Below, piece by piece: positions 49,489 to 53,585 of a stretch of 64,000 nucleotides of DNA. This DNA is from Methanobrevibacter sp. (GTDB lineage Archaea > Methanobacteriota > Methanobacteria > Methanobacteriales > Methanobacteriaceae): positions 62,001-126,000 of the forward strand of contig NZ_JAUNXR010000001.1 in assembly GCF_030539665.1 (NCBI RefSeq), read 5' to 3'. Position 1 is the stretch's first letter. Every line of letters starts with the position of its first letter. The position numbers and the translations under genes are program-made. The notes beneath the pieces were generated by a model. It ran no database searches, was not told the origin of the DNA, and worked only from the letters and a program-made list of their open reading frames with translations.

Positions 49489-50838
49489 CTAAAACCAATC
49501 TTTTGATTTTTCAATTAATTCTTCTACAATAATTTTTGATGAGCCTATGTATGTATGAGGATTCATAATTGCTTCAACGTCTTCTTCAGTTAAGTATTTT
49601 TGTACTTCTTCATCTTCTAATATTAAATCGCCAAGTAATTTGTCTTCTTTCTTAGCTTTGATTGCATTTTTCCTTACGATTCCATATGCAGTTTGTTTAC
49701 CCATCCCGCTTCTGGTAAGTTCTGCCATCAATCTTTCAGCCATAATTAATCCATTTGTTAAGTTAAGGTTTCTTTCAATATTTTCATCATAGAATACTAA
49801 ATTACTCATTAATTTGATTGTAAGGTTTAATATGTAATCAGTTAATATGCAGCTTTCAGGGAACATTATTCTTTCACAAGAGGAGTTTGTAAGGTCTCTT
49901 TCGTGCCAGAGAGGATTATTGTCGAGAGCTGCATTTACAAATGATTTAACAATTCTTGCAACACCACATATACGTTCTGCTGTAATTGGATTCATTTTAT
50001 GCGGCATTGTACTACTTCCCATTTGTTTTTCTGGGTCGAAGTATTCTCCAACTTCCATAAGCTCTGTTCTTTGGAGATTTCTAATTTCTAATGCAATTTT
50101 ATCTAATGTTGATGCAAGATTAGCTAATGCCATAATAAATTCAACATGATTGTCCCTTTGAACAACTTGGTTTGTAATTGATGCTGCAGGTAATTCTAAG
50201 ATTTCTGCAACGGTTTTATGAATTTCCCAACCTTGTTCTCCAAGTGCAGCTGTAGTTCCAACTGCTCCATCTACCATTGCAACACAAACATTTTGCTCTG
50301 CATGGTTTACTCTTTCATATTGCCTGTGTAATTCGTCAGCCCAAAGACCGAATTTCATTCCGTAGGTAATTGGAAGTGCGTGTTGTCCGTGGGTTCTTCC
50401 AACAGCTACTTTGTCAATATTTTCTTCAGCTAACTTAAGCATTATTTCTGTTAAAGTTTTGATTTTGTCTTTAATTATTTCTGCTGAATCTTTGATTAAT
50501 AATGAGTTTGAGGTATCAACAACATCATTTGAGGTTGCTCCGAAGTGGACATATTCTCCCGCATCATTGTCACATACTTCTCCAAGACCTTTGATTAGAG
50601 CTCCGATATCATGTTTTGTTGCTTTTTCGATTTCGTTTACTCTTTCTTCTTTTACATAATCTGTATTTGCTTTTTTTGCAATTTCATCTGCTACTTCTTG
50701 TGGGATTATTCCTAATTTCCCTTCTGCTTGTGCAAGTGCGGATTCTACGTCTAACATTCTTTGTAACTTATTTTTAGTTTCCCAGACAGCTTTCATTTCC
50801 GGGGTACCATATCTGAATTCGATTGGATGTATAGCCAT
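49489..50838 (-). CDS. purB: Adenylosuccinate lyase
   Basis: A 449-residue fumarase-superfamily enzyme acting twice in purine synthesis (SAICAR to AICAR; adenylosuccinate to AMP). GRTHGQHALPITYG with the catalytic His, and the signature GSSTMPHKMNP are clear. Start ATG 50838 has GAGATGATAAA upstream; ATG 50847 is within it. It diverges from the XRE regulator gene across a 192-base region that holds a 64-bp tandem repeat, so purB could share that control. Confidence 0.97.
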   Translation of the reverse strand: MAIHPIEFRYGTPEMKAVWETKNKLQRMLDVESALAQAEGKLGIIPQEVADEIAKKANTDYVKEERVNEIEKATKHDIGALIKGLGEVCDNDAGEYVHFGATSNDVVDTSNSLLIKDSAEIIKDKIKTLTEIMLKLAEENIDKVAVGRTHGQHALPITYGMKFGLWADELHRQYERVNHAEQNVCVAMVDGAVGTTAALGEQGWEIHKTVAEILELPAASITNQVVQRDNHVEFIMALANLASTLDKIALEIRNLQRTELMEVGEYFDPEKQMGSSTMPHKMNPITAERICGVARIVKSFVNAALDNNPLWHERDLTNSSCERIMFPESCILTDYILNLTIKLMSNLVFYDENIERNLNLTNGLIMAERLMAELTRSGMGKQTAYGIVRKNAIKAKKEDKLLGDLILEDEEVQKYLTEEDVEAIMNPHTYIGSSKIIVEELIEKSKDWF

Positions 50839-50890
50839 TTTTATCATCTCAATTTTTATTAGGTTTATATTTATTTTTTGTAATATTTAT

Positions 50891-51018
50891 TAGTAAAGTT
50901 TATATGTAATATATATTATACATATTTATGTTAAATATTTATTACATATGTTGATAGCAAAGTATATATGTAACATATATTATACATATCAATGTCAAAT
51001 ATTTATTACATTTGAAAA
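50891..51018. promoter_or_regulatory. 64-bp tandem repeat with palindromes: probable double operator upstream of the XRE regulator
   Basis: Two copies (50891-50954 and 50955-51018) match at about 54 of 64 positions. Each contains ATATGTA and TACATAT arms around ten AT bases (an operator-like dyad) and a second dyad around AAATATTTA. Copies repeat at 64 bp, about six helical turns, so both would face the same side of the DNA. The block sits between divergent purB and the XRE gene, ending 12 bases before TTG 51031. Autoregulation is inferred. Confidence 0.6.
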
Positions 51019-51030
51019 TTAGGTGATCGT

Positions 51031-51234
51031 TTGAAAACCAATATTAAAGAACTAAGAAAAGAGGTTGGATTAAGCCAACAAAAATTAGGGGATTTGGTTG
51101 GTGTTACAAGACAGACCATAAATGCTCTTGAAAATGCCAGATATAATCCTTCTTTATTATTGGCTTATAAAATTACAAAAATATTGGAAAAAGATCTTAT
51201 AGAAGAAGTTTTTATCTTAGATGATGATGAGTAA
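51031..51234 (+). CDS. XRE-family helix-turn-helix regulator
   Basis: A 67-residue Cro/C1-type HTH protein with almost nothing beyond the DNA-binding domain: IKELRKEVGLSQQKLGDL, then the recognition helix VTRQTINALENARYNPS. The acidic tail ends in DDDE. Start TTG 51031 has AGGTGATCGT upstream. Such compact regulators commonly bind as dimers and repress themselves and an adjoining membrane-protein gene. Here the next gene, DUF4013, starts 9 bases later, and a two-copy palindromic repeat lies upstream. Confidence 0.93.
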   Translation: MKTNIKELRKEVGLSQQKLGDLVGVTRQTINALENARYNPSLLLAYKITKILEKDLIEEVFILDDDE

Positions 51235-51243
51235 GGTGATAAA

Positions 51244-51969
51244 ATGATTTTGGATATTTATAAAGATTCATTTGAATATGCGGGACAAAATATTAAGGTC
51301 CTTCTTAAATTAGGATTATTGTCCATTTTTAGCTTTCTCATAATCCCAATTTTCTTAATTGCGGGTTATCAATACAGAGTTATTGAAAGTGGAACCAAAG
51401 GAATGGTGGGTGGTGAAGACAAACTTCCTGAATTCGATAATTTTACAGGCATGTTTGTTGACGGACTTAAAATGATTATTGTTCAATTTATATATTTATT
51501 CATTCCAATTGTGGTATTTATTATTATAGGTACTATAGGTCAAACAATCAATAATGATGCTATTTCAAGTCTCGGAGCAATTATTGGAATAATTTTATTC
51601 ATTATTTCTGTATTCTATTCATTCTTAGCAGTACCAAACATGATTGCTAATGAAGGATCATTAAAAGCAGCATTTGACTTTAAAAGGATAAATGAAATTA
51701 TAAAAATGATAGGTGTTGGAAGGTTTATTATTACATTCATAGGTTTAATGTTATTATGTGTTGTAATATCAGCAGTTGTTGCTGCAATTCTTATTGGAAT
51801 ATTTGGAGTATTTGGTATTGCAATTGGAAGTTTCAACCCTGCTGCTTTTGGAGGAGTAATGATTGGAGGATTAATTATCTATGAGGCAATATTCTCTTTT
51901 ATTGTAACTCCATACTTAGGAATCTTTTCATCACGTGTAACTGGACTTATATATGGGCTTGGTGAATAA
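51244..51969 (+). CDS. DUF4013 membrane protein, first copy
   Basis: A 241-residue integral membrane protein of DUF4013: hydrophobic helices at about 22-42, 75-100, 105-130 and 158-190, with FLIAGYQYRVIE, EDKLPEFDNFTGMFVDGLK after the first and a conserved ANEGSLKAAFDF loop. GGTGATAAA precedes ATG 51244. It abuts the second DUF4013 gene and is downstream of the XRE regulator, so it is probably in its operon. Function of the family is unknown; I infer a membrane-envelope role. Confidence 0.85.
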   Translation: MILDIYKDSFEYAGQNIKVLLKLGLLSIFSFLIIPIFLIAGYQYRVIESGTKGMVGGEDKLPEFDNFTGMFVDGLKMIIVQFIYLFIPIVVFIIIGTIGQTINNDAISSLGAIIGIILFIISVFYSFLAVPNMIANEGSLKAAFDFKRINEIIKMIGVGRFIITFIGLMLLCVVISAVVAAILIGIFGVFGIAIGSFNPAAFGGVMIGGLIIYEAIFSFIVTPYLGIFSSRVTGLIYGLGE

Positions 51970-52779
51970 ATGGCTTTAACTGATATACTTAAAAAAGGTT
52001 TAAAATATCCACAGCATGATTTTAAAAATGCTGTGTTATTTTCCCTTCTTTTGCTTTTAGGAACAATTTTATCAAATATTGGAAATCACTTCTCACTTTC
52101 AAAAGCAAATATTAATTCAATTGCAGGAGCACAAAATTTAAATGAAGTGATTAATGGATTATCAACTGTTCTTACTCCAACACAAGTAGCCATTCTAATA
52201 ATATTTTCCATTGCATCGTTTATAGTCTCATTATTTGCAAGTGGTTACATTTATAGGGTTTATGAAGGTGAGGATGAATTGCCTCACTTTGAGGACTATA
52301 AATTAATGCTCATTCAGGGAATTAAAGTATTCATAGTAAACTTGGCATACTGTATTATTCCAATTATCCTATTGGTTTTAGGACTTTATATTGCAGCTTT
52401 TAATTCAGATATTGCAAATTTATTAATTGCTGTAAGTGTAATTCTCGGAGCAATATTAATATTCTTCATATCTCCATTCGCAATAGCAAATATGGTTAAG
52501 GAAAATAGTTTTAAACAAGCTTTTAATTTTAATGCAATTGGAAGCAGAATATATAGGATAGGTATTATCCCATATTTGGTTACTGTAATATTGATGGGGG
52601 TTATTGAAATGATTATAGTGATTGCTTTCGGAGTAGTGATGTTAATATTGTCCCTGTTTGTAGTGATGAATCCAATAATTGGAATAATTGTGTTATTCAT
52701 AATGTTATTTGTTGGTTCTATTGTTTGTGGGTACGTAAACCTATTTACTAATAAGGTATATCAATTATTATACAGCTAA
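51970..52779 (+). CDS. DUF4013 membrane protein, second copy
   Basis: A 269-residue paralogue of the preceding gene: similar GYIYRVYEGEDELPHFEDYKLMLIQGIK and VKENSFKQAFNF landmarks with five or six hydrophobic helices. It begins on the base after the first copy's stop (TAAATG), with GGTGAATAA as the binding site, so the two are translated together. The pair may form a heteromer. A hairpin follows the gene. Confidence 0.85.
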   Translation: MALTDILKKGLKYPQHDFKNAVLFSLLLLLGTILSNIGNHFSLSKANINSIAGAQNLNEVINGLSTVLTPTQVAILIIFSIASFIVSLFASGYIYRVYEGEDELPHFEDYKLMLIQGIKVFIVNLAYCIIPIILLVLGLYIAAFNSDIANLLIAVSVILGAILIFFISPFAIANMVKENSFKQAFNFNAIGSRIYRIGIIPYLVTVILMGVIEMIIVIAFGVVMLILSLFVVMNPIIGIIVLFIMLFVGSIVCGYVNLFTNKVYQLLYS

Positions 52780-52820: not shown

Positions 52821-53585
52821 ATGACAACAATTAATGAAGAATTAAATCAAATTTCAATTATACGTCTATTGATAGTTGGAATTGTAACTATTTTTGCAAT
52901 GGTTATTATTGAAGATCTATTTTTAATTGAAGTTCCATATGACTTGCTATGGATTGTTTTGACTGTTTACATTGCTTATAAACTGAAGGGATGTTCTTTA
53001 GATTTTCATAATAAACTATCTGACGCATTCAAAACTTCAAATATAAAGTTAATCACATGGATTGTTATATTAAATTTAATCTTTTCATATGGTATGATTT
53101 ATTTATCTATTTTATTCATTGGAACAAGTTTTGACTTATCCAATAGCATTGCCCATGCATCTGGTTTATTTGCAGTAGGTACAGCTATCAGTACAATCAT
53201 AATAGCTCCAGTTTCCGAAGAACTAGTATTTAGGGGAGTTATTTTTAATAGATTAAATAAACGTATTAATGTTATTTTAGCAATATTGATTTCTTCAATC
53301 CTTTTTGGATTATGTCATGATTATGGCGGGATGTTTTCAGCATTCATATTTGGAATATGTATGTGTATCCTATACATAAAAACAGATAATATTTTTGTTC
53401 CAATGGGGGCTCACTTTTTAAACAATTTAATCTCAGAAATTCTTGATTTCATTGACCCTGCTGGAGATTTCTTTTATGATCCAACAATAATATGCATAAT
53501 TTTAGTTTTGGCTTTTATAGTGTTTATTGTATTGATGTATTATATTGTAAAAGAATTGAAAGCCATTAATAAAAATAATAATTAG
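52821..53585 (+). CDS. CPBP family intramembrane glutamic protease
   Basis: A 254-residue membrane protein with about seven helices and the complete CPBP/Abi (Rce1-like) signature: the first motif SEELVFRGV (EExxxR), the second HDYGGMFSAFIFG with its His, and the third HFLNNLIS. These form the intramembrane active site. Family roles include CAAX processing and bacteriocin self-immunity. No peptide toxin gene is visible nearby, but two DUF4013 genes and an XRE regulator precede it. It ends in a hairpin shared with the convergent adhesin. Confidence 0.92.
   Translation: MTTINEELNQISIIRLLIVGIVTIFAMVIIEDLFLIEVPYDLLWIVLTVYIAYKLKGCSLDFHNKLSDAFKTSNIKLITWIVILNLIFSYGMIYLSILFIGTSFDLSNSIAHASGLFAVGTAISTIIIAPVSEELVFRGVIFNRLNKRINVILAILISSILFGLCHDYGGMFSAFIFGICMCILYIKTDNIFVPMGAHFLNNLISEILDFIDPAGDFFYDPTIICIILVLAFIVFIVLMYYIVKELKAINKNNN

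Follow-up and report, generated by a model that had tools for sequence, protein, structure and literature searches.

In a 64,000-nucleotide stretch of Methanobrevibacter sp. DNA (the window), a 64-bp tandem repeat lies between purB and a short XRE regulator gene, xre. With a probability of roughly three in four, it represents the tandemly doubled promoter-operator cassette of an xre operon under autoregulation, whose XRE protein would repress both this operon and an ABC exporter operon by covering each promoter between the TATA edge and the start site. Comparative support comes from the anatomy of the sites, a shared motif placed relative to the TATA box, the linkage of the tandem motif to a gene module and the presence of a single cassette in relatives; from such comparisons of sequence we infer binding by XRE, repression, the start sites and the role of the DUF4013 proteins. 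The source genome (G000) comprises 1.62 Mb in 13 contigs and is ~95% complete.

The two 64-bp copies upstream of xre that the earlier note had described were confirmed. TRF reported a repeat at 50891-51011 in the window (period 64, 1.9 copies, 89% matches), and copies 50891-50954 and 50955-51018 are identical at 54/64 positions. Comparing the 183-bp purB-xre interval with itself, without gaps, gives at best 55/64 matches over 64 bp, at offset 64; 300 dinucleotide shuffles of the interval averaged 35.7 and never exceeded 44/64, ruling out a chance repeat. An assembly artefact is unlikely, as the ten positions at which the copies differ argue against it. The palindrome ATATGTA...TACATAT occurs in each copy, and the neighbouring genes are as the note had named them (a 67-residue XRE, or HTH_3, protein, purB and two DUF4013 genes). 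Beyond that description, each copy holds a second inverted repeat (TGTTAAATATTTATTACA at 50929-50946 and TGTCAAATATTTATTACA at 50993-51010) and one TATA box.

Table 1 Features of the purB-xre locus and its candidate operators (window positions).
Feature	Position	Strand	Basis or remark
Copy 1, 64-bp promoter-operator cassette (putative)	50891..50954	+	TRF, copy alignment, shuffles
Copy 2 of the cassette	50955..51018	+	where the two closest relatives carry their one cassette
TATA box of copy 1, TTTATATG	50899..50906	+	relatives also have TATA boxes before xre
O1, candidate operator TGTAATATATATTATACA	50905..50922	.	rank 4/63983 with full matrix; rank 9 with XRE2-only matrix
O2, candidate operator TGTTAAATATTTATTACA	50929..50946	.	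start at TATA+30; rank 1/63983 with all three training sets
TATA box of copy 2, TATATATG	50963..50970	+	
O3, candidate operator TGTAACATATATTATACA, weak match	50969..50986	.	rank 7 with full matrix; rank 30 with XRE2-only matrix
O4, candidate operator TGTCAAATATTTATTACA	50993..51010	.	start at TATA+30; rank 2/63983 with all three training sets
xre ribosome binding site, AGGTGAT	51021..51027	+	read from sequence
xre, 67-aa CylR2-like HTH_3 regulator, TTG start	51031..51234	+	
DUF4013 protein a, predicted membrane protein	51244..51969	+	confident, mostly helical model
DUF4013 protein b	51970..52779	+	
Rce1-like (CPBP) protease	52821..53585	+	conserved neighbour
purB TATA-like element, AT-rich, outside the repeat	50862..50880	-	by eye, purB-anchored upstream regions
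purB, adenylosuccinate lyase	49489..50838	-	ATG at 50838, as in relatives

Each cassette thus combines a TATA box with two inverted repeats of 18 bp, TGTNAN-N6-NTNACA, one abutting the TATA box (O1 and O3, at TATA+6) and one beginning at TATA+30 (O2 and O4), with successive start-to-start spacings of 24, 40 and 24 bp. Because archaeal transcription usually starts at a set distance from the TATA box, which here falls within O2 and O4, these two sites probably lie over the start. The earlier note had pictured two dimers on one face of the helix; the two copies are indeed in phase (64 bp, ~6.1 turns), but the sites within a copy are not (24 bp, ~2.3 turns), and the two dimers give way to four candidate sites, of which O1 and O3 are the weaker matches. 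Against shuffles, the best single palindrome within the 70 bases preceding xre does not reach significance (p 0.13). As the DNA is AT-rich, such a shuffle score is uninformative, and the case for an operator therefore rests on comparison between loci.

For that comparison we symmetrised a weight matrix built on 17 distinct 18-mers, all from ABC or XRE2 promoters (XRE2 being a paralogue of XRE); none was taken from a purB-xre locus, and two came from the ABC promoter of this same genome. Ranked over 63,983 window positions, O2 (18.7) came first, O4 (16.9) second, O1 (14.1) fourth and O3 (9.4) seventh. Four window matches reach at least the score of O1, against none in the reversed window (top score 13.8); at 9.4, the score of O3, there are seven in each. 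Training on the 10 XRE2 sites alone left O2 and O4 first and second, with 0 and 1 reversed matches, respectively, and placed O1 (rank 9) and O3 (rank 30) no higher than the reversed window. The test is not blind, since the motif was first noticed in the window and shaped the pattern by which training sites were chosen. The third-best full-matrix match, TGTAATAAATTTCTAACA at 1964-1981 (16.3), stands upstream of a TATA-like stretch of a DUF1002 gene (2030-2839) and may be due to chance.

Elsewhere in the genome, the motif recurs before an operon encoding an ABC ATPase and an ABC-2 permease (ABC2_membrane_4). A scan with TGTNANNTATNTNTNACA returned four matches, namely O2, O4, one before the ABC operon and one inside a gene, whereas its backward control returned one. 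Two tandem inverted repeats, 20 bp apart, precede the operon, and a pattern for such a tandem pair matches this genome in two places only, both before the ABC operon. There too the cassette is doubled: two 80-bp stretches of one orientation, 184 bp apart, are identical at 68/80 positions (L180:3440-3710; G000:C1:245439-245709). With a like signal before xre and before a membrane pump operon, the repressor probably controls both. The best NCBIfam match of the ATPase is TIGR03740, the lantibiotic-protection ABC exporters, at 247.9 bits, below the 309.75 cut-off. Between the two ABC cassettes lies a long inverted repeat (~-23 kcal/mol as RNA) followed by TTTTTT, possibly a small RNA or an attenuator. 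A third DUF4013 gene of the genome (L228, 3420 bases) has no matrix site scoring 8 or more. A second DNA match of the repeat, at G000:C1:169527, lies between two convergent gene ends and is therefore not a promoter; a 17-bp sequence, TGTTAATATATTTGACA, occurs near it. A looser single-site pattern allowing 2 mismatches gave 18 matches against 36 in its control, so single sites are not callable genome-wide.

How the cassette came to be doubled at xre is evenly poised. The operators could be real and the second copy a neutral product of slippage, copy 2 sufficing and copy 1 being a dispensable extra promoter; this alternative concerns the duplication only and is compatible with autoregulation. 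The two closest genomes, G063 (xre 94% identical) and G033 (76%), each carry one cassette, which aligns with both window copies and sits at copy 2's distance from xre, and the window copies have themselves drifted to 54/64 identity, both of which favour neutral duplication. Against it, the copy 1 sites O1 and O2 score 14.1 and 18.7 and the copy 2 sites 9.4 and 16.9, so copy 1 shows no decay, and the same genome has a doubled ABC promoter as well. The doubling may thus have been selected, and a neutral origin is equally likely. A conserved duplication is rejected by the single copies of G063 and G033, which make the event recent; most simply it would have arisen in the lineage of the window, and it may be incidental. 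The earlier note had held that absence of the duplication from close relatives keeping the operon would tell against its proposal; it is absent from the two closest, both of which retain that operon, so the duplication is not essential.

Across the genus the tandem pair is linked to the XRE2 gene module. Allowing at most 1 mismatch, the tandem-pair pattern matched 52 of 67 genus genomes (backward control, 2), and a tandem pair precedes 43 of the 46 paralogous XRE2 loci tested, arranged as XRE-DUF4013(-ABC); these loci were picked by hand, leaving aside G027, G087, G089, G090 and more distant paralogues. The loci lacking the pair are G074 (at a contig edge), G036 and the copy in G086:C103. Among the tandem-pair matches listed, 68 of 77 places lie beside xre2, and the other nine comprise the ABC promoters of G000 (two pairs), G011, G034 and G062, promoters of orphan DUF4013 genes (read in G011; G034 has the same sequence), G070:C34 and G083. 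The order XRE2-DUF4013-DUF4013-ABC ATPase-permease was found in five stretches (L181, L182, L183, L188 and L190; both DUF4013 domains of L181 were checked by Pfam), L184 has one DUF4013 gene, L189 has XRE2 and two DUF4013-like genes with no ABC genes behind them, and L191 ends too early. Eight XRE2 promoters that we read share a common layout, although in X2_G035 only one of the two sites fits the strict training pattern. Where present in xre1 (purB-adjoining xre), ABC and XRE2 promoters, the second-position site starts at TATA+28 to +32; the first site counts against the operator reading, standing at TATA+6 in the window and at TATA+11 in ABC and XRE2 promoters. Through this linkage of the tandem motif to XRE2 and ABC loci, together with the matrix ranks, comparative genomics supports the earlier proposal that the repeat is a putative operator of the adjacent XRE protein.

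The purB-xre locus itself is widespread, and its promoter is variable. The divergent pair is present in 64 of 67 genus genomes; we counted as xre1 loci those adjoining purB, one per genome, which left none in G002, G030 and G083 and set aside second XRE1-like matches in G007 (C40) and G062 (C47). A DUF4013 match was found at 18/64 of these loci and an Rce1-like protease match at 58/64, some loci being too short to show one; in G021, with a longer stretch, the protease match is absent. Seven of the 64 promoters carry a matrix site scoring at least 14 (G000, G063, G033, G021, G034, G011 and G020), and in the other 57 no site exceeds 11.7 within the stretch scanned, at most 200 bases ahead of the gene. 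The first six of these genomes have no close XRE2, an absence to be read against completeness of 66% for G063 and 77% for G033; a more distant relative occurs in G021 (52%) and G063 (48%). Among the xre1 proteins aligned, the recognition helix hardly varies, yet 57/64 promoters are without the site, so the helix does not predict promoter sequence. Many of the motif-less promoters instead show a CTATTAT...ATAATAG inverted repeat of variable spacing directly before the GTGAT of the ribosome site (for example, L014, L036, L026 and L053); few single cases beat shuffles, and the repeat may form a hairpin in RNA or serve as another kind of operator.

These counts also bear on whether XRE is the protein that binds. 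That the sites serve a different regulator, another HTH_3 protein or another factor, with XRE a mere neighbour, seems improbable to us: the genome does encode five further HTH_3 proteins and most xre1 promoters are without the motif, but the tandem motif accompanies the XRE/DUF4013/ABC module at nearly all XRE2 loci tested and also occurs in genomes that have just one XRE of the family. Among these are G034 and G011 (99% complete, one contig each, a single XRE match), where a tandem pair precedes the ABC operon. In the source genome nothing else matches the close family of xre, although at ~95% completeness an XRE2 could sit in a gap.

The earlier note had also allowed for control in both directions, the repeat lying between the two divergent genes. 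Control of purB, with or instead of xre, is very unlikely, because the pair is kept where the site is missing and a TATA-like element of purB, identified by eye, falls outside the repeat. Least likely of all is a structured RNA leader: the 50891-51060 fold is somewhat stable (z -2.2; 4/200 shuffles at least as stable), but such stability is expected from the pairing of two palindromic copies, most of the repeat lies upstream of copy 2's inferred start, TATA spacing is conserved as for DNA sites, and no Rfam match falls in the repeat, the sole match at E <=1 within 50400-51400 lying at 51238-51323 (E 0.24, below gathering).

The xre product is a CylR2-like short XRE protein. Its 67 residues match HTH_3 (E 2.3e-15), PDB entry 9k3w (E 7.6e-11) and residues 4-61 of the 66 of CylR2 (1utx; E 2.6e-9), the regulator of the Enterococcus faecalis cytolysin. 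It is a stand-alone HTH_3 protein similar to CylR2 over its length and of the 65-70 aa typical of the CylR2-like short XRE class, and, like members of that class, is encoded beside membrane-protein genes, two DUF4013 genes following it. A model of the DUF4013 protein (pLDDT 92.1) had no PDB match at E <=0.001. CylR2, which reportedly binds an inverted repeat as a dimer, is a short XRE protein whose gene likewise adjoins a membrane-protein gene, the regulator genes being divergent from their target. The systems differ in that the promoter here is an archaeal TATA promoter, the DUF4013 proteins have ~240-270 aa where CylR1 has three predicted helices, and the further target is an ABC exporter rather than toxin genes. 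By analogy with CylR1/CylR2, and from the pairing of the genes, the DUF4013 membrane proteins are probably the signal input.

In the mechanism that we propose, a dimer of the 67-aa XRE would bind the 18-bp inverted repeats TGTNAN-N6-NTNACA, in each cassette one site abutting the TATA box and a better one from TATA+30, over the presumed start. By denying access to TBP/TFB or RNA polymerase, the bound dimer would repress xre-DUF4013-DUF4013, and the same protein would act in trans on the ABC-2 exporter operon, with its two cassettes of like design. DUF4013 proteins, sensing the membrane or an exporter substrate, might then release the repressor. All that the second copy would probably contribute is further sites and one more regulated start.

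XRE repressors that regulate themselves through palindromic operators are a known kind of system. The target of BcrR, the regulator of the enterococcal bacitracin system, is an ABC transporter. BcrR also couples DNA binding to membrane sensing, and differs in carrying its own four-helix membrane domain where the membrane part here would be a separate protein (PMC13384398). A precedent from another family is YtrA-Sa of Sulfolobus acidocaldarius, which represses its own membrane-protein operon and one further membrane-protein locus through a palindromic motif covering the transcription start (PMC6746942). It shares with the present case an archaeal repressor, a very small regulon and a palindrome over the start, and differs in belonging to the GntR family and having a 14-bp core motif (PMC6746942). 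In the literature searched, no account of such a regulon came up and DUF4013 was named only in one paper, on cotton, so both the present regulon and its link to DUF4013 seem to be undescribed there. Our analysis gives a short XRE regulator of Methanobrevibacter a proposed operator defined by sequence and a small regulon open to testing; XRE binding and its TATA-based promoter can be tested in vitro, without genetics of the organism.

At 25 of the 46 xre2 loci there is a second tandem operator pair, divergent from the xre2 operon. Together with an opposite-strand TATA box, such a pair stands before a candidate RNA of ~90 nt, which a 12-bp stem, AGUUCCAAGCAG/CUGCUUGGGACU, closes (L205:1780-1904, and L190, L204, L206, L208, L211, L212, L214, L217, L220, L222, L223 and L225). 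Over these 13 sequences 90.4% of stem cells pair, with 3 two-sided changes, values that shuffles reach in 19 and 46 of 500, respectively; sliding the partners by 1-3 columns lowers pairing to 20.5-53.2%. L222 and L223 fit poorly, and six loci, five of them holding the candidate, gave no Rfam match at gathering. As a tentative extension, Methanobrevibacter might possess a membrane-stress module combining a CylR2-like repressor, DUF4013 antagonists, an ABC-2 exporter, a conserved small hairpin RNA and tandem operators at fixed TATA distance, the RNA acting on messages during exporter induction. It is just as speculative that in the lineage of the window this module was split over two loci, with each promoter cassette doubled. 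A similar layout with a different half-site is seen in G063:C76 (L092), where another short XRE gene adjoins a membrane-protein gene with a weak DUF2157/DUF2178 match and the tandem palindromes GTAAAGTAAGCTTTAC and GTAAAGTTAACTTTAC stand behind a TATA box.
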